A DNA stretch of 64,000 nucleotides, taken from NCBI GenBank assembly GCA_028751875.1, contig CM054140.1, positions 28,629,685 to 28,693,684 on the forward strand, given 5' to 3'. Origin of the DNA: Rapana venosa. Lineage: Eukaryota; Mollusca; Gastropoda; Neogastropoda; Muricidae. Below are positions 10,701-44,100 of the stretch, one piece after another. Below the pieces are notes generated by a model. That model had not been told where the DNA came from and did no database searches. It saw only the letters and a program-made list of their open reading frames with translations. How positions within the stretch are numbered: position 1 is the first letter of the stretch; each line of letters starts with the position of its first letter. A program made the position numbers and the translations under genes.

Positions 10701-13700
10701 TTTGTCCAAGGGGATTTTCCATCTGGCATTTATTTATTTATATCGAGGAGAATGGAATAAGCACTCATGTACTTTTTTACATCCAGTCCCCGTGTGTATG
10801 CGGTTTTGTAAATTTTGTCATCTGTTTCCACCGGCACACAATGGCCTTCTCTTCCGAAAAGCGGAACAGGATTTAACGTATTCGCAAGATGTTCTGCATG
10901 CGTTCGTACACAGGGCCTTGGTTTATAGTCTTATCCGAAATTGTTATTTAACCCTGTTTCTCTGCAAATCCTTCAACAAGACAAAAATCAAAAATCCAGA
11001 ATGCAAACACATGTAGAAGCATCTTGAGTGCTGAACATATGAAAAAAACATCTTGTGTACTGATCACATGAAAAAAAAAAATCTTGCACACTTGTTAAAC
11101 CATATCCGTCTTTCGATGATGTAGAGTATGTTCTTTCGAACCAGAAGGCCCATAGAGCCGGAGCTTATCCCGGTTTCTGTAGCGTTAAGCGAACTGATGG
11201 TTTTTCACCACCCCTGTGACAGGACGCTAGTCTGTCACCAGATACTTCCCCAGCAGAGCTGGTACCCACTTGTACACCTGGGTGGAGTGAGGAAAATAGG
11301 AGTAAAGTGTCTTTCCCAAGGACACAACACCGAGCCGAGCGGGGATCGAACCCGCGACCTCTGGATCACGAGTTGACCGCCTAAACCACTCGACCACGGT
11401 GCCTCCATGATGATGTAGAGTAGTCTGGATAAAGCCAGTGGCACGGATAATAATACATACCTAGCATGCACCCTGCTAGCTGGAGAAATATGGGCTCCTC
11501 CAGCCCATGACCCCCCCACTACCTGAAAAATTTCATCGCAACAACTCCTCAATGAGTTGAAGAGAGAGAGAGGCCGAGCTAAGCCAAGTCAAGTCAGGCC
11601 ATCCCTGAAGTCAGAATGCAGCTACCTAAATGGGACAGAGGTGAAGGGGGGGGGGGGGGGGGGGGGTTGCATACACAAAAATCTCGCCATTGGTGAACCT
11701 TGGAGCTCTAGCTGAGGAATGAAAAGAAAAAAAGTCAGGTTAAGTCCTAAAGTGGAGACGAGTCCAGCGAACGACTTGGTGTGATGGCGGGGTGTGCTGT
11801 GGGCAGGTCCCTGTGTTCGCTGGTGTGTAAGTGGGGCTATGAGATCAAGGACCTGCAGCAGCACGGCTGGAACGACGACTTCCTCCGCGCTGTGGGTCTG
11901 GGGGAGCTGGCTGAAGACGACCACAGCAGGATAGGTGCCGCGCTGCTTTGGGCTTTCATTTTGTGTTTTGTTGTTGTCGGGGTTGCATTTTGTGTTTTGT
12001 TGTTGTCGGGGTTTCATTTTGTGTTTTGTTGTTGTCGGGGTTTCATTTTGTGTTTTGTTGTTGTCGGGCTTTCATTTTGTGTTTTGTTGTTGTCAGGCTT
12101 TCATTTTGTGTTTTGTTGTCGGGGTTGCATTTTGTGTTTTGTGTTGTCGGGGTTGCATTTTCTGTGATGTGTCAGCTCTGTGTTTCCCATACTGCTTTTT
12201 TGTTGTTGCATTTTTAGTCACTGTGGCCGTACTAAGATTTCTTTTTGATATGACGAACGCTACAGCCGAGTGGTTAAGACCGTTTGACTATATTCCCGTG
12301 GGTTCATGAAGTCGTGGGTTTGAATCTTGCCAACATCTTGTGAATGAAGGGTGGGGATTTTTTTTACAAACTCCCAGATCAACTGTAAGTGCAGACCTGC
12401 AAGTGCCTTAATTTCCTTTGTGTATATACATGTGTAAAAGATCAAATATGCATGTTAAAGATCCTGTAATTCATGTCGGTTTTCGGTGGGTTTAACATAC
12501 CCAGCATACATCCACAAATTCAGAATGCAGCCACCATCACAGCAGGCAAAGAAGGTCACATATGCAAAACCTCAGCATTGGTGACCCTCAGAGCTGTAGC
12601 TGAGGAACCAGATATTATAATAATAATAATAATATATGGAATTTATATCTATATGTGGTGTATCAAGCTTTGCCCAGGCTGGAAGCTTCTTCAGTACTGA
12701 TGGGAAGACATTGCCCAGGCTGATAAATAAAAATGGTGCTATGCTTTGAAATGCTATGCTGAGACTGTCTTCATCCATGATAAGCTCTTCCGCATAACAG
12801 CCTGTAATCTCCTTTGAGAAAAGGGAAATAGTCCTCTGAAGTTGAAATATGGCTGCCTAGGTGGTGAGGTATTTGAAAGCAGCCATACCTGCAGAATTAC
12901 TGTATCACAGGGATTCTAAAGCGTGAGGAGTCAGACAATGCATATTTGTAGTGACTTCCAGGGTGTTATGCTGGGGAAGGGGGCAGGATGGCCTAGTGGT
13001 TAGAGCGTTGCGCTCGTGATCTGACTGCCAGGGAACAAGCCCAGGTTTGAGCCACCACAGAGATGCCTGTTCACAGGGGATTTGTTTTCCCCCCAGAATT
13101 AACATTAGTCCTTCAGATCAGACTATAAATTTAGGCCCCATGTGCGAATTCATGCAGAACATCACGCGCGCGTGTTAAAAGCTGCTCTGCCTTTTGGAAA
13201 AGTAGGCCATTCATGCTTGTAATAACGGATGACAACCTCCCCCCCCCTCCTCCAAAACCCTCAATCTCACGCACAATAGTGTTGTGTTTAGACATCATCC
13301 CTGAAGTCGGAATGCAGCTACCATAAAAAAAAAGGTAAAGGTAAAGGAGTCCCATAACCTATAAGGTCGTAGGGGAGCGAGGCGTCAGAGACCTCACTCC
13401 TCTAGGGTCCAGCATATTGAGGGCGGAGCCCATCTCCTCTCCCTCACTGCTTTACCTTCCCTGACCCTAAAGAGGGCATGTACCCATTTACAGCTGGGTG
13501 AACTGGGGGAACTGTACTGAAGCCAAGGCGCGCAAACGGTCACCCATCCAACTGGTAACCACACTCGACGCTGCTTAACCTTGGCTGGGGGAAAGCGAGT
13601 GCTCCGACCACTGAGCTATCCCGTCCCCGCAGCTACCATAATGGTGGGCAAAAAAAGGGTGACATACGCAAAACCTCGCCAGTGGTGAACTTCAGAGGTC

Positions 13701-15103
13701 TTGGCTGAGGAGCGATAAAAAACAAAACCAGAAAAACAAACCCCAGCTGGGCAAGAAGACTTGACTGTTGTTGTAGCTGCTGGTGCGGCTAATGCACTCT
13801 CCTCCTCTTTCAGCTTCCAATGAGTTTATGGTTGTTGTTGTTTGTTGGTTTGTTTGTCTGCGTGGTCACCAGGCAGGGAGGTCAGCGTGTCGGGAACGTC
13901 CTGTGGTGCGGGGCTGCGTGAGGAGTTATCCCAGGTCCTGAAGCTGCCGGCCGGCACGGCTGTGGGGGTGTCACAGATAGACGCTCATGCTGGAGCTGTG
14001 GGTGAGTGAGGGAGTCAGTGAGTCTGTCTCATCAGTGAGTGAGTGAGTCTGTCTGGTCAGTGAGTGAGTGAGTCTGTCTGGTCAGTGAGTGAGTGAGTCT
14101 GTCTGGTCAGTGAGTGAGTGAGTCTGTCTCATCAGTGAGTGAGTGAGTCTGTCTGGTCAGTGAGTGAGTGAGTCTGTCTGGTCAGTGAGTGAGTGAGTCT
14201 GTCTGGTCAGTGAGTGAGTGAGTCTGTCTGGTCAGTGAGTGAGTGAGTGAGTCTGGTCAGTGAGTGAGTAGTCAGTGAGTGAGTGAGTCTGGTCAGTGAG
14301 TGAGTCTGTCTGGTCAGTGAGTGAGTGAGTCTGGTCAGTGAGTGAGTGAGTCTGGTCAGTGAGTGAGTGAGTCTGGTCAGTGAGTGAGTGAGTGAGTCTG
14401 TCTGGTCAGTCAGTGAGTGAGTGTCTGGTCAGTCAGTCAGTGAGTGAGTCTGTCTGGTCAGTGAGTGAGTGAGCCTGTCTGTGAGTTGATGATGATAATG
14501 ATGGTGATGATCTGTGAAAACTGAATGTTACGCTACATGACAAAGATCAAATGGGAAGACAGGATCACGAATGAAGAACTATGGAGAATGTGCAAAGTTG
14601 ATGATCTGAAGTCTGTAGCTAGTACCAATAGACTGCGCTGGTTTGGGCACATTCAACGGAAAGCAGACCACCACATCATAAAAAGAGTAATGAACTTCGT
14701 AGTGGACGGAAAGAGACCAAAGGGAAGACCTAGCAAAAACCTGGGCTGCCTGTATTGCAGATGATCTTAGAGAAAGGAGCATGAATAAGGAGGAAGCTTG
14801 AAACAGAGAGAGATGGAGAAGGCTCATCAATGTCAAACCTCCACTGGGAGAAACATGACAAAAAAGGAAGAAGAATAAGAATGATGATGATGACCACCAC
14901 CACGGTGGTGGAGACGGTGATGATGACTGTGGTGGTGGTGGTGATGATGATGGTGGTGGTGGTGATGATGATGATGATGATAAAAATGATGGTGGTGGTG
15001 ATGATAATGATGGTGATGATGATTATGGTGGTGATGGTAGTGGTGGTGGTGGTAGTTGTTATAATGATGATGATAATGATGATGTTGATGATGGGGATAG
15101 CGA

Positions 15104-17145: not shown

Positions 17146-20100
17146 CAGGTAGTAGAAGTAGTAGTAGTAGCAGCAGCAGCAGCAGCAGGTAGTAACCAGC
17201 AGCGGCAGCAACAGCAGAAGCAGTAATAATTTAATATGGTGTAAGAAGCAGCAGCAGCATCAGCAGCAGCAGGTAGTAACCAGCAGCGGCAGCAACAGCA
17301 GAAGCGGTAATAATTTCATACGGTGTAAGAAGTGAAATAGGATTATATGTTTTGTGCTGTTTCTGGACCAGAAGAAGGAGGGGTGCAGGTGTTGGTGTAC
17401 ACACACTGCTGTGTGCAGGGTGCCTGGCCTGTCAGCCCAGCAGGGGGCAGCCTCACGCCCTGACCCAGCGCCTCGTCCTGATCTGTGGCACCTCCACCTG
17501 CCACATGGTGGTAGGTCTGAGTTTATAGGGTGGGGGAGGTTTGTGTTTGTTGTTGTTGTTGGTTTTTTTTTTGTTTTTTGGTTTTGGTTTTTTTTTTGGG
17601 TGGGGGGGGGCGGGGTGATGAAGGGAAAGGAGGTTGGGTGTTTTGAGGGAGGTTTGTGTGTGTGTGTGTGTGTGTGTAAATAAAATTGTGTGTATAAGTT
17701 GATGGGGAGGGGCGGGGGTGGGTGGGTTGTGTGTATGTGTAGTTGTGTGTGTGTGTAGTTGTGTGTTTGTGTGTGTGTGTGTGAGTGAGAAAGTGTGTTG
17801 TGGCTGTGTGCTATTCCCATGGCAAAAATGCAGTGTTGTGGTTGTGTGCTATTCCTGTTGCAAAAATGCAATGTTGTGGTTGTGTGCTATTCCTGTGGCA
17901 CAAATGCAGTGTTGTGGTTGTGTGCTATTCCTGTGGCAAAAATGCAATGTTGTAGTTGTGTGCTATTCCTGTGGCAAAAATGCAATGTTGTGGTTGTGTG
18001 TTTTGTGCAAAAGAGTGTGTGGGTGTCCTATTCCTGTGGCAAAATGCAATGTGTGGCTGTGTGCTTTGTGGCAATAATGCAGTGTTGTGTGTGTGTGTGT
18101 GCAATACATGTTGTGTGTTGCTGTGGGCAGATGCAGTGTTGTGTTGTGTGCTGTTGTGGCAGATAGCAGTGTTGTGTGTGTGCTGTGTGGCAGATCAGCA
18201 GTGTTTGTGGTTGTGTGCTATTCCTGTGGCAATCAATGCAGTGTTGTGGTGTGTGTTCTGTGGCAAATGACAGCAGTGTTTTCTGTGGCAATAGCATGTG
18301 TGTGTGTCTGTGTGGCAGATCAGCAGTGTTGTGTGCTGTGTGGCAGATCAGCATGTTGTGTGTGTGTGTGGCAGATCAGCAGTGTGTGTGTGCTGTGTGC
18401 AGATGCAGTGTTGTGCTGTGTGCTGTGTGGCAGATCAGCAGTGTTTGTGGCTGTGTGGCAGATCAGCAGTGTTGTTGTGTGCTGTGTGGCAGATCAGCAG
18501 TGTTGTGTGGCTGTGTGGCAGATCAGCAGTGTTGTGGCGGGAGATCAGCAGTGTTTGTGTGTGGCAGATCAGCATGTTGTAGCTGTGTTGTGTGGCAGAT
18601 CAGCAGTGTTGTGGCTGTGTGCAGTCAGCAGTTTGTGTGCGTGATCAGCAGTGTGTGTGTGTGTGTGGCAGATCAGCAGTGTTGTCGTGCAGATCACGTG
18701 TGTGGCAGATCAGCAGTGTTGTGTGTGGCAGATCACGTGTGTGTGTGTGTGGCAGATCAGCAGTGTTGGGTTTGGTGCTGTGTGGCAGATCAGCAGTGTT
18801 GTGTGCTGTGTGGCAGATCAGCAGTGTTGTGGCTGTGTGCTGTGTGGCAGATCAGCAGTGTTGTGGCTGTGTGCTGTGTGGCAGATCAGCAGTGTTGTGT
18901 GCTGTGTGGCAGATCAGCAGTGTTGTGGCTGTGTGCTGTGTGGCAGATCAGCGTTGTTGTGTGCTGTGTGGCAGATCAGCAGTGTTTGTGCTGTGTGTGG
19001 CAGATCAGCAGTGTGTGGCGTGTGTGTGCTGTGTGGTGTGTGTGCAGATCAGCAGTGTTGTGTGCTGTGTGTGCAGATCAGCAGTGTTGTGGCTGTGTGG
19101 CAGATCAGCAGTGTTGCTGTTGCTGTGTGTTGGCAGATCAGCATGTTGTGCTGTGTGTGGCAGTCAGCAGTGTTGTGTGCTGTGTGTGGCAGATCAGCAG
19201 TGTTGTGTGCTGTGTGGCAGATCAGCAGTGTTGTGGTTGTGTGCTGTGTGGCAGATCAGCAGTGTTGTGGCTGTGTGCTGTGTGGCAGATCAGCAGTGTT
19301 GTGTGCTGTGTGTGGCAGATCAGCAGTGTTGTGTGTGGCAGATCAGCAGTGCTGTGTGCTGTGTGTGGCAGATCAGCAGTGTTGTGTGCTGTGTGGCAGA
19401 TCAGCAGTGTTGTGTGCTGTGTGTGGCAGATCAGCAGTGTTGTGTGCTGTGTGGCAGATCAGCAGTGTTGTGTGCTGTGTGGCAGATCAGCAGTGTTGTG
19501 GCTGTGTGGCAGATCAGCTGTGTTGTGTGCTGTGTGGCAGATCAGCAGCTGTGCGCGCTATGTTCCTGGTGTGTGGGGGCCGTACTTCTCCGCCACCATT
19601 CCCGGCACCTGGACCAGTGAGGGCGGTCAGAGTGCCACCGGAAAACTGGTCAGTACTGGACTCTGTATGTGTGTGTGTGTGTGTTGTTGTGTGTGTGGTT
19701 GTGTGTGTGTGTTGTTTGTGTGTGTGTGTGGTTTGTGTAGGTGTGTGTGTTGTTTGTTGTTGTGTGTGTATTTGTGTGTGGTTTGTGTAGATGTGTGTGT
19801 GTGTGTTTGTGTAGTTGTGTGTGTGTAGTTTGTGTGTGTGTAGTTTGTGTGTGTGTGTGTGTAGTTGTGTGTGTAGTTTGTGTGTGTGTAGTTTGTGTGT
19901 TGTTGTGTGTGGTTTGTGTGTTTGTGTAGTTGTGTGTGTGTGTGTGTGTAGTTGTGTGTGGTTTGTGTGAGTGTGTAGTTGTGTGTGTGTGTGTGTGTAG
20001 TTTGTGTGTGTGTGTGTGTAGTTGTGTGTGTGTGTGTGTTGTGTGTGTGTGTAGTTGTGAGTGTGTAGTTGTGTGTGTGTTTGTAGTTTGTATTCGATTC

Positions 20101-23100
20101 GATTCGATTTTACGTCTGTTCACTCTCAGTGATATTAGGAGTTTGTAGTTTGTATGTGTGTGTGTGTGCGCGCGCGTGTGTAGTTGTGTGTGTGTGTGTA
20201 GTTGTGTGTAGGTGTATGCGCTGTGTGTAGTTGTGTGTGTGTGTAGGTGTGTGTTTGTGTGTGTGTGTGTTGTGTGCAGATACTTGTATGCATGGGTGAG
20301 TGGGTTTGAGAGAGAGTGAGTAGAAGAGAGGATGAGCAAGAGAGAGAAAGAGGAGAGACTTATTGTGTTTATGTCTTTTGTCATCATCTTAGATTTAACA
20401 TGATCTGTTTATTACTTGTTGAACCAAAAGAAAAAGTGGTTCTACATAGGAAAACATAAAGGACTTTTGTGTGCGTGTTGGTTTACAGAAAAAATACCCC
20501 AGGTGGTTTTATACAAAACATCAACAAAATGATTTGTGCATGTATACCTACATGTACGCACATGCGTGTGCATGTGCGTGTGTGTTTGTGAATGTTTCTG
20601 CCAACATTGGGATTAAACAGGGGTTTAAATTTTGCTAAAACAGAAAAACCTGTAAACTGATGCATCATTGTGGTCATGTACATAAAGATGACAATGTTTT
20701 TTCTGTTCAGATTGATTTCGTTGTGGAGGGTCATTCTGCGTTTGCTGCAGCAAAGTCCAATGCTGAAAAACGGTCAGTATTTCAGAGATTATCATTTAAA
20801 GTGTTAATTTATCACTAAGAAAAGCTTTTTTTGTGTGTGTGGTGATTTACTATGACCAGCTCTCAGTTCCATCTTCTTGGCCAACTTTGAGGTAAAGACA
20901 AGGGTATGCTGAAGAAGAAGAAGAAGAGGTAAAGATTGAAATGGAAGAATTGGAGCAAATTCAAATGAAGATTTCATGTTTGTTCAAGTAAATCATGAAA
21001 AAAAAGGATATTTTTTTCTAGAATGTTGTAATCTTTTGTAAAGACTATCTGCTCCCCTGATATGGCCTCTGTGGTCATTAGGGCTATATACAGGCTGCAC
21101 ACTGGTATTAAAAAATCACTCTTTTTCTTCTGTTTTTCTATGTGACTCTTATATTCATACCACACGTACTAAGGCATCCACAGAAATAAAAACCACTTTT
21201 TGTGAAAGACTAGCCTCTGACTCAAAACTCATGTGATTTTGAACAAATTTGGTAGGTTTGAAATTTTTTAATTTTTCAGCAAACACTGTACCCCCTCAGT
21301 CCTTTGTCGTCTGCTAGCTTCCTTACCGCAATATGCATGCTCGGGGTCAACGCTGTAGGAATACAGGCAATCCTCATTTGAGGATTATTTCCAACTTTCT
21401 CATGACTACCTGGTATTGCTCTATGTCCTCAATCCCCAGAACAAGTGCACAGTCCATTTTTTTCATGCTTAAAAAAATCTGTGAAAATCACACACATTTT
21501 TTTCCACTCGCACTCTATAGAAGATACTACATGACCCCCAAATTAATACCGGTGTGTAGCCTGAATAACATGAATTAAAGTGAAACATGGCTATCCGCTC
21601 TGTCAGTCTTTTAACACTTGCCAGTTTTTCCGCCAGGTTTTCTATCACATTATAGATGGATGGGTTTAAACATGTAAAAATTTTTTAAAAAGAAATGTTC
21701 TAAAGATATTTCAGAAGAAGTATTACAATTTGATTTTTTTTTCTTTTTTTCTTCTCCTTGTTCTGAATACGTTGACTTATCTTACGTGACCTTGGATCCA
21801 TTACTGTACTTTATTTTTCGTAAGGCTTTGAATATGAAAAGCATGAATCTGAAAAAACTCAGAAAATATAAAGAGTAAAAAAAAAAAAGATAAACACAAA
21901 TTAAAACAAAGCTTCCCCCCCCCACTCCAACAAAAAGAACAACCCTAAACAAACCCAAAACAACAACAAACAAAACAAAAAACATTATCTTGTAAAACAA
22001 AACAACAAAAAACCAAAATAGAATAAAGACATCTCCCTCCCCTCCCCCCCCCCCTCCCCTGTCCCACCACCACCCCCCTAAATAAACCACAACAACACAA
22101 ACACCCCAAAAAGATAAATCGTCTGACATTATGTAGTAAGTCAGTTTGTAAAGCAATGTGTGTATTGACAGACGAAACGTGTGACTGGCATTGCAGAGGC
22201 CAGCATGTGTACCAGTATATTGACAGACAAAACTGACATTGCAGAGGCCAGCATGTGTACCAGTATATTGACCGACGAAACATGTGACTGGCATTGCAGA
22301 GGCCAGCATGTGTACCAGTGTATTGACAGACGAAACGTGTGACTGGCATTGCAGAGGCCAGCATGTGTACCAGTATATTGACAGACGAAACGTGTGACTG
22401 ACATTGCAGAGGCCAGCATGTGTACCAGTATATTGACAGACGAAACGTGTGACTGGCATTGCAGAGGTCAGCATGTGTACCAGTATATTGACGGACGAAA
22501 CGTGTGACTGACATTGCAGAGGCCAGCATGTGTACCAGTATATTGACAGACGAAACGTGTGACTGGCATTGCAGAGGTCAGCATGTGTACCAGTATATTG
22601 ACGGACGAAACGTGTGACTGACATTGCAGAGGCCAGCATGTGTACCAGTATATTGACGGACGAAACGTGTGACTGGCATTGCAGAGGTCAGCATGTGTAC
22701 CAGTATATTGACGGACGAAACGTGTGACTGACATTGCAGAGGCCAGCATGTGTACCAGTATATTGACGGACGAAACGTGTGACTGACATTGCAGAGGCCA
22801 GCATGTGTACCAGTATATTGACGGACGAAACGTGTGACTGACATTGCAGAGGCCAGCATGTGTACCAGTATATTGACGGACGAAACGTGTGACTGACATT
22901 GCAGAGGCCAGCATGTGTACCAGTATATTGACAAACGAAACGTGTGACTGGCATTGCAGAGGTCAGCATGTGTACCAGTGTATTGACGGACGAAACGTGC
23001 ATGTGTACCAGTATATTGACAGACGAAACGTGCATGTGTACCAGTATATTGACAGACGAAACGTGCATGTGTACCAGTATATTGACAGTGACTGACATTG

Positions 23101-26031
23101 CAGAGGCCAGCATGTGTACCAGTATATTGACAGACGAAACGTGTGACTGGCATTGCAGAGGCCAGCATGTGTACCAGTATATTGACAGACGAAACGTGTG
23201 ACTGGCATTGCAGAGGCCACCATGTGTACCAGTATATTGACAGACGAAACGTGTGACTGGCATTGCAGAGGCCAGCATGTGTACTAGTATATTGACAGAC
23301 GAAACGTGCATGTGTACCAGTATATTGACAGACGAAACGTGCATGTGTACCAGTATATTGACAGTGACTGACATTGCAGAGGCCAGCATGTGTACCAGTA
23401 TATTGACGAACAAAACGTGTGACTGACATTGCAGAGGTCAGCATGTGTACCAGTATATTGACAGTGACTGACACTGCAGAGGCCAGCATGTGTACCAGTA
23501 TATTGACAGACGTGTACCAGTATATTGACAGACGAAACGTGTGACTGACATTTCAGAGGCCAGCATGTGTACCAGTATATTGCATGTGTACCAGTATATT
23601 GACAGACGAAACGTGTGACTGGCATTGCAGAGGTCAGCATGTGTACCAGTATATTGACAGACGAAACGTGTGACTGACATTTCAGAGGCCAGCATGTGTA
23701 CCAGTATATTGCATGTGTACCAGTATATTGACAGACGAAACGTGTGACTGGCATTGCAGAGGTCAGCATGTGTACCAGTATATTGCATGTGTACCAGTAT
23801 ATTGACAGACGAAACGTGTGACTGACATTGCAGAGGCCAACATGTGTACCAGTATATTGACAGACGTGTACCAGTATATTGACAGACGAAACGTGTGACT
23901 GACATTTCAGAGGCCAGCATGTGTACCAGTATATTGCATGTGTACCAGTATATTGACAGACGAAACGTGTGACTGGCATTGCAGAGGTCAGCATGTGTAC
24001 CAGTATATTGACAGACGAAACGTGTGACTGGCATTGCAGAGGTCAGCATGTGTACCAGTATATTGACAGACGAAACGTGTGACTGGCATTGCAGAGGTCA
24101 GCATGTGTACCAGTATATTGACAGACGTGTACCAGTATATTGACAGATGTGTACCAGTATATTGACAGACGTGTACCAGTATATTGACAGACAAAACTGA
24201 CATTGCAGAGGCCAGCATGTGTACCTGTACCTCAACCGTCTGTTGGACAGCGCGGCCTCACAGCGCGGTGTGCCGGTCAGTCGTCTGACCACACACCTCC
24301 ATGTTTTCCCCGATTTCCATGGCAACCGCTCTCCGCTAGCTGACCCGACCATGAAGGGCATGGTGAGGCGACAATACTGCACACTGTGATACATAATAAC
24401 ACAACACAGTACAGCAAGATAGGGTAGGAAATATTACAACACAGTACAGCACACTGTGATACATAACAACACAGTACAGCACACTGTGATACATAACAAC
24501 ACAACACAGTACTGCAGACTGTGATACATAATAACACAGTACAGCACACTGTGATACATAACAACACAACACAGTACAGCACACTGTGATACATAACAAC
24601 ACAACACAGTACTGCAGACTGTGATACATAATAACACAACGCAGTACTGCACACTGTGATACATAACAGCACAACACAGTACTGCAGACTGTGATACATA
24701 ATAACACAACGCAGTACTGCACACTGTGATACATAACAGCACAACACAGTACTGCAGACTGTGATACATAATAACACAACGCAGTACTGCACACTGTGAT
24801 ACATAACAGCACAACACAGTACTGCAGACTGTGATACATAATAACACAACGCAGTACTGCACACTGTGATACATAACAACACAGTACATGACACTGTGAT
24901 ACATAACAACACAACACAGTACTGCACACTGTGATACATAACAACACAACACAGTACAGCACACTGTGATACATAACAACACAACACAGTACAGCACACT
25001 GTGATACATAACAACACAACACAGTACTGCACACTGTGATACATAATAACACAACACAGTACAGCACACTGTGATAAATAATATCACAACACAGTACAGC
25101 ACACTATGGTACATAATAACACAACACAGTACTGCACACTGTGATACATAACAGCACAACACAGTACAGCACACTGTGATACATAACAGCACATTGCAGT
25201 AGGATGAGAAACAACACGGCACAGTACTATACACTAAAATATGATACAATATTGGACAAAATGACTCAGTACATTACATTACAGTAGGATAAAAAAAACA
25301 CTTGGAGGACCTTCAGCGCATGCCAGCATGTGTCAGGTCCTCTGGAGTTGCTGTGTGAGCGTTCGACAAAGAAGAAGATGAAGAAGAAACAACACCCCAC
25401 AGTGCAATACAACAAAATATGATACAGTACCCTACAAAACGACGCATTGCAGTATAGTACACGCTAGTACAAAGCCGTATAACATAATACTGCACAAAAC
25501 AGTACAGTACAAGACCGCATAATACAACACAACCCAATACGATACAATACACCGTGAGACAGTACATCATAGTACAGTACAACAAAACACAATACAGAAC
25601 ACCCCAGTACAGCACAGTGTAATAAATGCACCACAACACAATACAATACAACACAATACAATTGCACGTGTGTTTCATTTATTTATTTATTTATTCTTTT
25701 ATATCGAGGATAATGGAATAAGCACTCATGTGCTTTTTTTCATCCAGTCCCAGTGTGTATACATTTTTGTAAATGTCATCCATTCCCACCGGCACACAAT
25801 GGCCTACTCTTCCGAAAAAGCGGAACAGGTTTTAACGTATTGTGCGCAAGATGTTCTGTGTGCATTCTTACATGGGACCTCGGTTTTTAATCTCATCCGA
25901 AGGACTTTTGGGGGAGTGGAGTCGGCACTGATGTTAACTCCAGAGAACAAAAATCCTCTTGAACGAGATTCGAACCCGGGTCAGCAGATCACGAATGCAT
26001 CACTCTCACCACCAGGCTATCCCGTCCCCCC

Positions 26032-38164: not shown

Positions 38165-39805
38165 ACCTCTTGATCGACAATCTCTTGTCAGGATAACACT
38201 CGGAAGAAAATACACCAACAATCTTGTCAGGATAACACTTGGAAGAAAATACACCAACAATCTTGTCAGGATAACACACGCAAGAAAATACACCAACAAT
38301 CTTGTCAGTATAACACACAAGAAAATACCTGACAATATTGTCAGGATAACACACACAAGAAAATACACCAACAATCTTGTCAGGATAACACACACAAGAA
38401 AATACACCAACAATCTTGTCAGGATAACACACGCAAGAAAATACACCAACAATCTTGTCAGTATAACACACAAGAAAATACCTGACAATATTGTCAGGAT
38501 AACACACACAAGAAAATACACCAACAATCTTGTCAGGATAACACACACAAGAAAATACACTGACAATCTCTTGACAGGATAACACACACAAGAAAATACA
38601 CTGACAATCTCTTGACAGGATAACACACACAAGAAAATACCTGACAATCTCTTGTCAGGATTCAGCGCTATATAAATTCCATATATTATTATTATTATTA
38701 TAACACACACAAGAAAATACCTGACAATCTCTTGACAGGATAACACACAAGAAAATACCTGACAATCTCTTGACAGGATAACACACACAAGAAAATACCT
38801 GACAATCTTGTCAGGATAACACACACAAGAAAATACCTGACAATCTTGTCAGGATAACACACACAAGAAAATACACCGACAATCTCTTGTCAGGATAACA
38901 CTTGGAAGGACAACACTAGGAAGAAAATACACTGACAATCTTGACAGGATAGGACACATAAAATATACCAACAATCTCTTGTCAGGATAACACTAGGAAG
39001 AAAATACACTGACAATCTTGACAGGATAGGACACATAAAATATACCAACAACCTCTTGTCAGGATAACACACACAAGAAAATACACTGACAATCTTGACA
39101 GGATAACACACACAAGAAAATACACTGACAATCTCTTGTCAGGATAACACACACAAGAAAATACACTGACAATCTTGACAGGATAGGACACATAAAATAT
39201 ACCAACAATCTCTTGTCAGGATAACACACACAAGAAAATACACTGACAATCTTGACAGGATAACACACACAAGAAAATACACTGACAATCTCTTGTCAGG
39301 ATAACGCACACAAGAAAATACACCGACAATCTCTTGACAGGATAACGCACACAAGAAAATACACCAACAATCTCTTGACAGGATAACGCACACATGGGAA
39401 AATACACTGACAATCTCTTGTCAGGATAACACACATGGGAAAATACACTGACAATCTCTTGTCAGGATAACACACATGGGAAAATACACTGACAATCTCT
39501 TGTCAGGATAACACACAAGAAAATACACTGACAATCTCTTGACAGGATAGGACACACAAGAAAATACACTGACAATCTCTTGACAGGATAACACACAATG
39601 GAAAATACACTGACAATCTCTTGACAGGATAGGACACACAAGAAAATACACCGACAATCTCTTGACAGGATAACACGCACAAGAAAATACACTGACAATC
39701 TCTTTGTCACATTGGAAAATACACTGACAATCTCTTGACAGGATAACACACACAAGAAAATACACTGACAATCTCTTGACAGGATAACACAACCAACAAT
39801 ATCTT
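38165..39805 (-). repeat. Minisatellite downstream of RanBP3 (unit about 38-41 bases)
   Basis: About 40 units of GACAATCTCTTGTCAGGATA plus ACACACACAAGAAAATACACT, in two types (CCAACAATCTTG and CTGACAATCTCTTG). It lies 1.2-2.8 kb past the RanBP3 stop and may be in its 3' UTR. TTGTCAGGAT/ATCTCTTGACAGG variants alternate regularly. Confidence 0.95.
38661..38700 (+). mobile_element. Tail-only L2/CR1-type insertion in the array
   Basis: TCAGCGCTATATAAATTCC and (ATT)n, only about 40 bases, inserted between the AGGAT and AACACAC of one unit. An extreme 5' truncation. Confidence 0.8.
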
Positions 39806-40512: not shown

Positions 40513-40945
40513 CAAAATACAAAACACACACACACACATTCAGTCAACAAGGGACAATCTCTCACACACATACTCATTCAGCAGACAGAAGGATATACAG
40601 TCACACACACACACACATTCAGTCAACAAAGGGACAATCTCTCACACACATACTCATTCAGCAGACAGAAGGATATACAGTCACACACACAATTCAGTCA
40701 ACAAAGGGACAATCTCTCACACACATACTCATTCAGCAGACAGAAGGCTATACAGTCACACACACACATTCAGTCAACAGAGGGTCACATACACCACACC
40801 ACACATTCAGTCAACAGAGGGTCACACACACACATTCAGTCAACAAAGGGACAATCTCTCACACACATACTCATTCAGCAGACAGAAGGATATACAGTCA
40901 CACACCACACACACACATTCAGCCAACAGAGGGTCTCACACACCA
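40513..40945 (-). repeat. Tandem array next to the RanBP3 stop codon
   Basis: About five units of roughly 85 bases: (CA)n, CATTCAGTCAACAAAGGGAC, AATCTCTCACACACATACTC, ATTCAGCAGACAGAAGGATA, TACAGT. The last, shortened units end about 20 bases from the stop codon, so the array lies in the proximal 3' UTR. Confidence 0.92.
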
Positions 40946-40962
40946 CCTCCAGGTGTGACTGC

Positions 40963-41133
40963 TCACTTGTGTTTGAACTGGGTGGTGGGAGGGGACTCTG
41001 CCTCCACGTCGGCTTTCCTTTTCTCCCCGTGGTGCAGGGGGTCTGGCACCTTCTCCCAGTCCTCGTGGATCTTCAGCTGCTGGATTCGCCAGTCTATGGC
41101 ACGCAACAGGTTCTCCAGGTCCTTGGGGTTCGT
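40963..41133 (-). CDS. RANBP3: RanBP3 exon 17 and stop codon
   Basis: Acceptor GGTGTGTGGCAG. Encodes TNPKDLENLLRAIDWRIQQL, the last helix of the Ran-binding domain, then a short tail with GEKRKADVE and the end TTQFKHK; TGA at 40965-40963. The tail lacks the Glu/Asp run seen at the vertebrate C-terminus. Two decayed copies of this exon edge lie upstream in intron 16. Confidence 0.88.
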   Translation of the reverse strand, partial: TNPKDLENLLRAIDWRIQQLKIHEDWEKVPDPLHHGEKRKADVEAESPPTTQFKHK

Positions 41134-44100
41134 CTGCCACACACCATGCCAACACAACGGTCACCTCTTCTGGGTAAGCTATGCTGTAGCCTGCTTCAGG
41201 GCAAGGCTTGAAGGATTAAAAATTTTTTTTATTATATATATTTAGGGTTCTACAGATTCCTTGGGGCTAGTCATAAAACATGTCCACAGTCAGCTTTTCT
41301 GTGCAAGCTGTGCTTCAGCCTTCTTCAGGGCAAAGCCTGGTGATTTTTTATTTCTTACATATAGGTTCAAGGTTCTACAATTCTTGGGGTTTGCCATAAA
41401 CCGTGCCAACAGATATGTTCTCAGTGCGCATTGTATTTTAACCTCCTTCGGGGCAATGCCAAATGGCTTTTCATTTGCTACAATGATGTTTGACCAAGAC
41501 TGTTCGGAGTATATCTTTTAGACTTGTTTTCAAAGTGTTTTGACAAAACAGTGAGCTGAAGTTAAATGCATGTGAAAATAAAAGTTGACAAGAGGAACAT
41601 ATCCTCCTGCAGGCCATTCAAACCCCCACAAATTGTTTCCTCATTAAAATATTTTTGCATTTGGAATGCCTGACTCTGCAACAACTTAATGCATAATACT
41701 GTGTGTATGCACCCCACCCACCCCCCCAAAAAAAAACAACCAAAAAAAAACCCAAACCAAAACACAACCAACCCATTAGAAACAAACGAAAACCCCAAAC
41801 TGAAAACTTTTCTACAGCTGAACACCCTCCAGCAGTGGGGGTGGAGGCAGAGGAGGACTGACTGACCATGATGAGGAAGACGCGGACAGCCTGATCGACG
41901 TCGGTGGCAGTGATACGTATGGCCTTGGTGCTGGCCCTCTCCACGTTCATCCCTGACCAGATCTTGGTGTTGAGGATCACCCGCAGGCTGCCCTGAGTTC
42001 TCATCACTGTCATCACCACAAACAACATCATTTCACCAGTACAGAAATGCACAAAACTGACGAAATGCACAAAACTGAGGAGGAATCCTGAAGGGGTGAA
42101 AGAAAATCTAACACAGAAGTTTAAAAAATATGACACAAATGCAAGGAGATAAATAGGTATATAAAAACATACATAATGGCATATTGTACCAAACATAGGC
42201 ATTGTATCATGGTACTTTCTGAAGATCAAGAAAATGAGATCAGTGCAACAGGGATTTCAGGGACAGCAAACATACTCTAACTCCTCAAAGTTTAACACAT
42301 AGTACCAGTACAAGATGCTAACTCTACACTAAGTCGAGATTAAGAATGGTGCTTGATTAGTTCAATTTTGCTTTATTTAAATTTCTTACCGTTATCAAAT
42401 CAAATAGTCAAAATCGCCACAGCAAAATTCCCCCCCCACCCTCAATACTCATAAACACTCTCCACACCATGTTTCTCATAAAAGACTGCATAACAAACCC
42501 CATGCTACTAAGCACTGACACCACAGCACCATCTGTGATCAGCCATGTCCGCTAACATCTCAAATGTGACCAGCTTACCCAGTCTGGACTGGAAGGTGTT
42601 GGAGCTGGAGTTCTGAGGCAACATGTCATTCAGCCTGATGGTGCCACGTCCTCGTTCCACCCAGGTCTGAGTGTCGCAGTCAAAGACAAACAACTTGCCA
42701 TTGGACTGGAAAAGGAATAGCAGAAAAGGAAAGTACAGGAGGTGACCCGGTTTGAGATATTGATTGAAAAAAAAAACAATAATGAACATGCGCAAGAAAC
42801 ATAAAATTACTAAATTTCTATTAGCAGAGGAGGTGTGTGTGTGTGTGTAAGTGCGTGTGTGTGTGCGTACTTGCAAAATGGGGAAAAACATCAGGCATTA
42901 CTTAGTAATAGAATTACCCATACTACACATATTCATCGCTGCACACTGCAAATGTGTGTGGGTTTTCAGTGAAGAGCAGATCTCACCTAACCCCCATAAA
43001 AGAATGAATGCTTTTCCTTACTCGCCAAAAATGAATTTTAACAATTCGACTTATTTCCACGATGCAATCTCTCTCTGTCTCTCACACACACACAAACAGT
43101 ACTGACCTGTAAGACATTGGACTCGTCCTCCTCGCCGGTGACCACCTCCACCTCTTTGAGGTCGACCTTGTTGTCATGCTTGGCCTGGTACTCCCGGGCA
43201 GACTCCTCCAGGGTCTGGCCACTGCGGGCTGCTGGAGCTGAAGCAACACACACACCCCCAGTCAACATCAGTGCAGACTCCACTCTCCCCAAAAGTCTTT
43301 CGGATGAGACTATAAACCGAGGCCCCGTGTGCGAACGCACGCAGAACATCTTGCGCACATGTTAAATCCTGTTCCGATTTTCATAAGAGTAGGCCATTGT
43401 GTGCCGGTGGAAACAGATGACAAAATATACAAAACCGCATACACATAGGGACTGGATGTAAAAAAGCACACAAGTGCTTATTCCATTATCCTCGATAAAA
43501 AAGAATAAATAAATAAATAAATAAACCAAGCCACCTCTGTGCAGGTAGTGTGTAGGACCACTCGTATATTCAAGAGCTGCACCCACACACTCTCCCAAGT
43601 CACCTTTGTGAAGGTAGTAGGTAGGACCAATCACATATTCAAAATTAATTTAAAGGGTGGAGAAAAAAATGGTTGCATATGCAAAAATCTCATATTGATG
43701 AACTTCACAGCTCTAGCTGAGATATAAAAACCCAACCAAAAAAAAAAAGAAGAAAGAAAATTAATCGCATCATTAGAAACAGCTTACCATGAGAATCAGT
43801 TTATTCAGCAAAATAATGTTACATTATACTGATTAAAAAGTCCTCAATAAAGTGGCTGCTTGAAATTCTTGAATTCACGGGTTAGCCACCTTCTCCACCT
43901 CCCCTCCCCCCCAAAAAAAAAAAAAATTATGCTTAATTTTTTTGTGTGGACTTCATTAATACCTATCCATGGAAGTTTTTATTTGAACAAAGAGCTATCT
44001 TCAAATATGAGCATTTCAGGAAAGTTTTTATTCTACAAACATTTCTCATATCAACAAAATTTTTGTTTTATCAAACGCACTGATAATGGAAATATATTTG

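Follow-up and report, generated by a model that had tools for sequence, protein, structure and literature searches.

Minisatellites with tandem units that run across an intron-exon boundary have been described in amphioxus, where they were named "mirage" minisatellites and occur in Adh3 and in the globin genes BflGb6 and BflGb9 (PMC3087553). In BflGb6, the 3' end of the intron and the 5' part of exon 2 are repeated, one haplotype having six units and another three. Many, though not all, of the amphioxus units retain splice signals, and the Adh3 data and the authors' reverse transcription polymerase chain reaction suggest that regular splicing is undisturbed. Somatic instability has also been reported for the Adh3 mirage (PMC3087553). 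Here, we describe a minisatellite with a 55-base unit in intron 9 of an FGGY carbohydrate kinase gene of the gastropod Rapana venosa. The gene lies in a stretch of 64,000 nucleotides (assembly GCA_028751875.1, contig CM054140.1, positions 28,629,685 to 28,693,684, forward strand), hereafter the window. The kind of repeat has already been named in the literature, and the FGGY array is a new, large mollusc example of this little-known kind. No report of mirage minisatellites in molluscs was found in the open-licence literature, which is no proof of their absence.

The FGGY array shares with the amphioxus mirages the structural definition of the kind, since its tandem units span an intron-exon boundary of the host gene, and CAG is retained in all 31 copies of the acceptor that precede the true site (the decoys). 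The BflGb6 units measure 150-160 bases, whereas the FGGY array, in a mollusc, has a 55-base unit, 31 extra copies, and just 17-21 exon bases. A 31-bp variable number tandem repeat in human CBS, c.1444_1467+7(16_21), likewise spans a junction by its name and has 16-21 copies, but the name places it on the donor side with 24 exon and 7 intron bases (PMC2630376). The FGGY unit contains no donor, and 0 of 14 donors, including donors 9 and 10, are copied in their own introns when as many as 3 mismatches in 20 bases are allowed. In the CBS variant 844ins68, the intron 7/exon 8 junction is duplicated and the more distal site (the paper speaks of "donor sites") is strongly favoured; unlike the FGGY array, it is a single extra copy of 68 bases with no array (PMC2630376). 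Junction duplication as a source of new splice signals is also seen in human duplicated genes that have tandem repeats at their exon-intron boundaries (PMC2812944) and in intron gain in the potato RdRp gene (PMC4974935). Those systems have altered or new introns with transcripts, whereas intron 9 of FGGY, seen here at the DNA level, seems only enlarged.

The 15 exons of the gene, when joined, form one uninterrupted FGGY reading frame of 545 amino acids. The product is assigned to the FGGY pentulose kinases by NCBIfam TIGR01315 (666 bits; cut-off 409), and the top named gastropod orthologues, among the 120 listed of 7998 matches, are from Nucella lapillus (74%), Babylonia areolata (71%), and Littorina saxatilis (68%). 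Intron 9 (20773-24208) starts with ~1.4 kb of other sequence, after which the array continues up to the acceptor. A first-pass annotation of the window had placed this array at 22141..24242; the array itself is real, while its left edge is near 22160 and the exon bases in common end at 24225 (coordinates of all features are collected in Table 1).

What is repeated is the junction of intron 9 with exon 10 itself, and the unit takes in ~37 intron bases and 18 to 21 exon bases. The 32 copies all run in one orientation and, within the searchable genome, are found at this locus only. At up to 4 mismatches, CATTGCAGAGGCCAGCATGTGTACC is found 32 times in the window, as 31 decoys and the true acceptor, and no copy is found on the minus strand. 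This agrees with the first-pass annotation, which had described an array copying the exon 10 acceptor together with 17 exon bases and ending at the true acceptor. The 55-base consensus is AGGCCAGCATGTGTACC AGTATATTGACAGACGAAACGTGTGACTGGCATTGCAG, and its opening 17 bases are those that start exon 10. The sharing of 17 bases across so many copies is not due to chance. The sequence TGCAG followed by the 17 exon bases is exact in 15 of the 31 decoys and has at most one mismatch in all of them, and CAG/AG (the slash marks the splice point) is intact in 31/31. Unit lengths (n = 31) are 55 bases in 20 cases, 74 in four, 77 in two, and 45, 48, 111, 114, and 144 in one each, and the right half of the array is scrambled by sub-repeats of 19, 22, and 33 bases. 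Among the 20 full 55-base units (the other 11 are uncounted), variable positions number 2 of 17 in the exon copy and 7 of 38 in the rest. The second unit (22207-22261) and the true acceptor (24171-24225), at opposite ends of the array, have the rarer form GACAAAACTGAC in common.

The occurrence of the unit elsewhere was examined in a single assembly of 2.28 Gb and 2004 contigs. An exact 26-mer gave 11 matches and a 110-base query gave 19, and every one of them is at the FGGY locus. A dispersed repeat or transposon fragment is therefore ruled out within the searchable genome.

The direction of copying was addressed with an alignment of the exon 10 start from 15 relatives, chosen among the 120 listed, and the window protein. 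The window reads GQHVYLYLN at this position, Nucella GMHVYEYLN, Babylonia GKHVFEYLN, Batillaria GVHLYEYLN, and Littorina KVHLYQYLN. The orthologue pattern is GxHVYxYLN, and the GQHVY of the window fits the 15 relatives. When the arrays of introns 7 and 9 are left aside, the score of GQHVY on the columns of these relatives is matched by 1 of the 17,101 stop-free 15-mers from introns; with the arrays included, the score is equalled by 36 of 20,456, mostly by the array itself. Because GQHVY fits the orthologue columns beyond the intron background, the exon is taken to have preceded the repeat. The protein-level comparison argues that the exon supplied bases to the repeat and that the exon edge was not overwritten, in keeping with the first-pass derivation of the unit from the intron 9/exon 10 junction with its acceptor.

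After the 17 identical bases, the unit continues with CAG TA and the exon with CTG TA, one base apart, so that 20 of 21 bases agree. Leucine at this codon is found in the window only. It is present in none of the 15 relatives, of which 10 have Glu, Gln, or Asp, and the six best-matching have Glu or Gln. The glutamine of the unit may be a fossil of the former state of the exon.

Based on these observations, the array is very probably a mirage minisatellite, a by-product of a junction-spanning duplication that was amplified and tolerated. A single tandem duplication across the junction could have been aided by microhomology, a short GT(A) that the exon, in its former state ACCAGTA, would have had in common with the GTRTATTGAC of the intron. 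If the exon then read CAG, the joining of exon ...ACCA/GTA to intron GTRTATTGAC would yield 37 + 18 = 55 bases exactly, and the unit would then consist of 37 bases of the intron 3' end and 18 exon-like bases. The duplicated junction would subsequently have been amplified by slippage or unequal exchange, and a later change of CAG to CTG in the exon would have left the array with CAG.

The last copy is presumably the one normally used, as the sole copy joined to the body and donor of exon 10 (exon definition). The pyrimidine fraction of the exon 10 acceptor is 0.41 at -25..-4, the second lowest of 14 (the remaining 13 acceptors range over 0.36-0.77). Since this acceptor is pyrimidine-poor, the body and donor of exon 10 probably decide the choice. 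When translated on from exon 9 in phase 2, all 31 decoys reach a stop after 6 to 45 residues, as anticipated in the first-pass annotation, where decoy misuse had been expected to be destructive. Use of a decoy would bring in array sequence with a stop and would lead to removal of the RNA by nonsense-mediated decay. Since exon 10 can be reached from the last copy only, the array would be tolerated, and it appears to be a by-product with a possible cost to splicing, not a device. The best donor-like site within the unit, which could define a small cassette exon, matches 4 of 7 consensus positions. Hiding of the decoys by RNA structure was also considered and set aside as an explanation; the folding z-scores (-1.87 for an array segment, -0.47 for the true junction) gave nothing decisive.

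Several points weigh against this reading. The preference for the last copy is deduced rather than read from RNA, and the microhomology model requires a former CAG in the exon, which is reconstructed from the protein comparison. The decoy acceptors vary no more than the rest of the unit, which fits homogenisation and would also fit use. In addition, copies of the unit elsewhere could be concealed, since stretches of N cannot be searched (N accounts for 61,043 of the 240,000 bases when 24 assembly stretches were sampled, summed by hand) and the DNA search of the assembly scores only the best candidates.

A variant that is compatible with the mirage reading holds that the original capture took in ~35 exon bases, of which the last 14 have since diverged. 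This was the proposal of the first-pass annotation. Its first part stands, in the 17 identical bases and the agreement at 20 of 21. For the remaining 14, the QYIDR of the unit resembles the LYLNR of the exon and the EYLN/QYLN of near relatives, but the bases agree at only 7 of 14 positions (p about 0.04, in a test chosen after the match was seen), and the peptide likeness is not unique, as 78 of the 17,101 stop-free 15-mers from introns, the arrays of introns 7 and 9 left aside, also attain its score of 13. The longer capture is possible and not needed, as 21 bases would account for the data equally well, and we regard it as rather doubtful. It is improbable that the copy number is an artefact of assembly. 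Although the draft assembly of BflGb6 in amphioxus was aberrant (PMC3087553), the units of the FGGY array bear point variants and higher-order patterns, and the array exists whatever the exact count. Slightly less credible still is a selected switch, in which FGGY mRNA would be tuned through decoy use and decay. The retained CAG and the stops of all 31 decoys, and the decoy that equals the true site across 55 bases, are what such a switch would show; the stops, however, are inherited from the founding unit, so that the full count of 31 represents nearly a single event, and the variable positions show no concentration in the parts of the unit beyond the acceptor and exon copy. Least credible is a repeat that existed first and overwrote the exon edge through conversion, the alternative that the first-pass annotation had itself raised: it would explain the 17 bases in common and a following leucine codon unmatched among the relatives, but it fails at the protein level on the orthologue pattern, and the repeat has no other home in the searchable genome.

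Among the 28 splice junctions of the gene, copies in the own intron (up to 3 mismatches in 20 bases) are found only for acceptor 7 (33 copies) and acceptor 9 (31 copies). The first-pass annotation had described two alike arrays in one gene as unlikely by chance. Both arrays exist, and the one in intron 7 also copies an acceptor, but it has just 8 exon bases in common. The argument from chance is weakened by the general abundance of arrays, which often abut exons: arrays of at least 200 bases occupy 28% of the FGGY gene versus 5.7% of the 240,000 bases in the 24 sampled stretches (~7.7% without N, calculated by hand). The start of exon 8, ISSCARY, fits the relatives to a degree equalled by 192 of 15,532 intron 21-mers outside arrays, a weaker result than that for exon 10. 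In intron 7, the repeat may therefore have shaped exon 8. In the intron 6 array, no junction copy is found at 3 mismatches.

Table 1. Positions in the window of the FGGY gene, its intron 9 array, and its other arrays. A slash marks the splice point.
Feature	Position	Strand	Remarks
FGGY carbohydrate kinase gene, start codon to stop codon	4564..31963	+	15 exons
Exon 9	20711..20772	+	Ends in phase 2; donor AAACG/gtcagt
Exon 10	24209..24362	+	154 bases; opening 17 bases common to the array
True acceptor context, exon 10	24171..24208	+	Pyrimidine-poor
Intron 9 minisatellite, 55-base unit	22160..24208	+	~2.05 kb; left edge approximate
Stretch holding the 31 decoy copies of the exon 10 start	22197..24111	+	First from 22197, last 24095-24111; intact CAG before each
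Decoy with exon-like part from 22245	22207..22261	+	Identical to the true acceptor for 55 bases, 38 of them upstream and 17 downstream
Intron 7 array, into exon 8	17726..19553	+	Acceptor and 8 exon bases, GGCAG/ATCAGCAG; 33 junction copies at up to 3 mismatches
Intron 6 array, 25-base unit	14002-14481		Rich in GTGAGT, the donor motif itself
Intron 10 array	24371-25193		Starts 8 bases into the intron
Intron 5 array	11950-12165		Starts 15 bases into the intron

Elsewhere in the window, putative exons of a RANBP3-like gene are seen on the minus strand at about 40960-43400, and two arrays, at 38176-39791 and 40525-40946, lie beyond its presumed stop codon.

The position of arrays relative to exons was examined with two lists for FGGY (10 arrays merged by hand, 8 merged automatically), with distance thresholds chosen after looking. 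In the hand-merged list, 6 of 10 arrays have an edge no farther than 15 bases from an exon or run across its boundary, where uniform placement predicts 0.38 (0 of 200,000 simulations); without the TG-rich array of intron 8, 5 of 9 are near an exon. At 10 bases, the count is 4 of 10 (0.26 expected, 6e-5). In the automatic list, 5 of 8 are within 16 bases or cross an edge (0.32 expected, 0 of 200,000 simulations), and 3 of 8 are within 10 bases (101 of 200,000 simulations).

A second sample comprised 20 stretches that hold 24 of 72 myosin-head matches, mostly the best-scoring, with two better-scoring matches passed over for internal stops; N makes up 1,018 of 32,038 bases. Here, the nearer edge of 8 of 13 arrays is no more than 30 bases from a match edge (0.65 expected) and the others are at 75 to 531 bases, which gives a probability of 4e-8 for uniform placement over 600-base flanks, a crude null in which match edges stand in inexactly for exon edges. 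Four of the eight edge-near arrays are in stretches L035, L037, and L042, which have very long open frames and are maybe not ordinary exons; without these three, the result is 4 of 9 (probability 6e-4). By eye, the arrays beside the myosin-head matches in L033, L036, L042, and L052 start ~6 to 39 bases past the presumed donor. No junction-copying array was seen by eye in six of the myosin stretches whose arrays are near exons, and no junction-copy count was run on the 24 matches.

From these samples, exon-hugging arrays look common in the genome and junction-copying ones look rarer. A tentative suggestion, which we hold to be somewhat unlikely as it stands, is that exon edges in this snail lineage are birthplaces of minisatellites through transcription- or splicing-linked breakage, occasionally swallowing a junction and so producing mirages.

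The FGGY array extends junction-copying minisatellites to a mollusc. It also provides a natural test of splice choice, with 32 near-identical acceptors of which one pair, ~2 kb apart, is identical over 55 bases, and only the last reaches the exon. Should the clustering of arrays near the edges of exons hold up across the genome, it would tell where minisatellites are born and would offer raw material for intron change.
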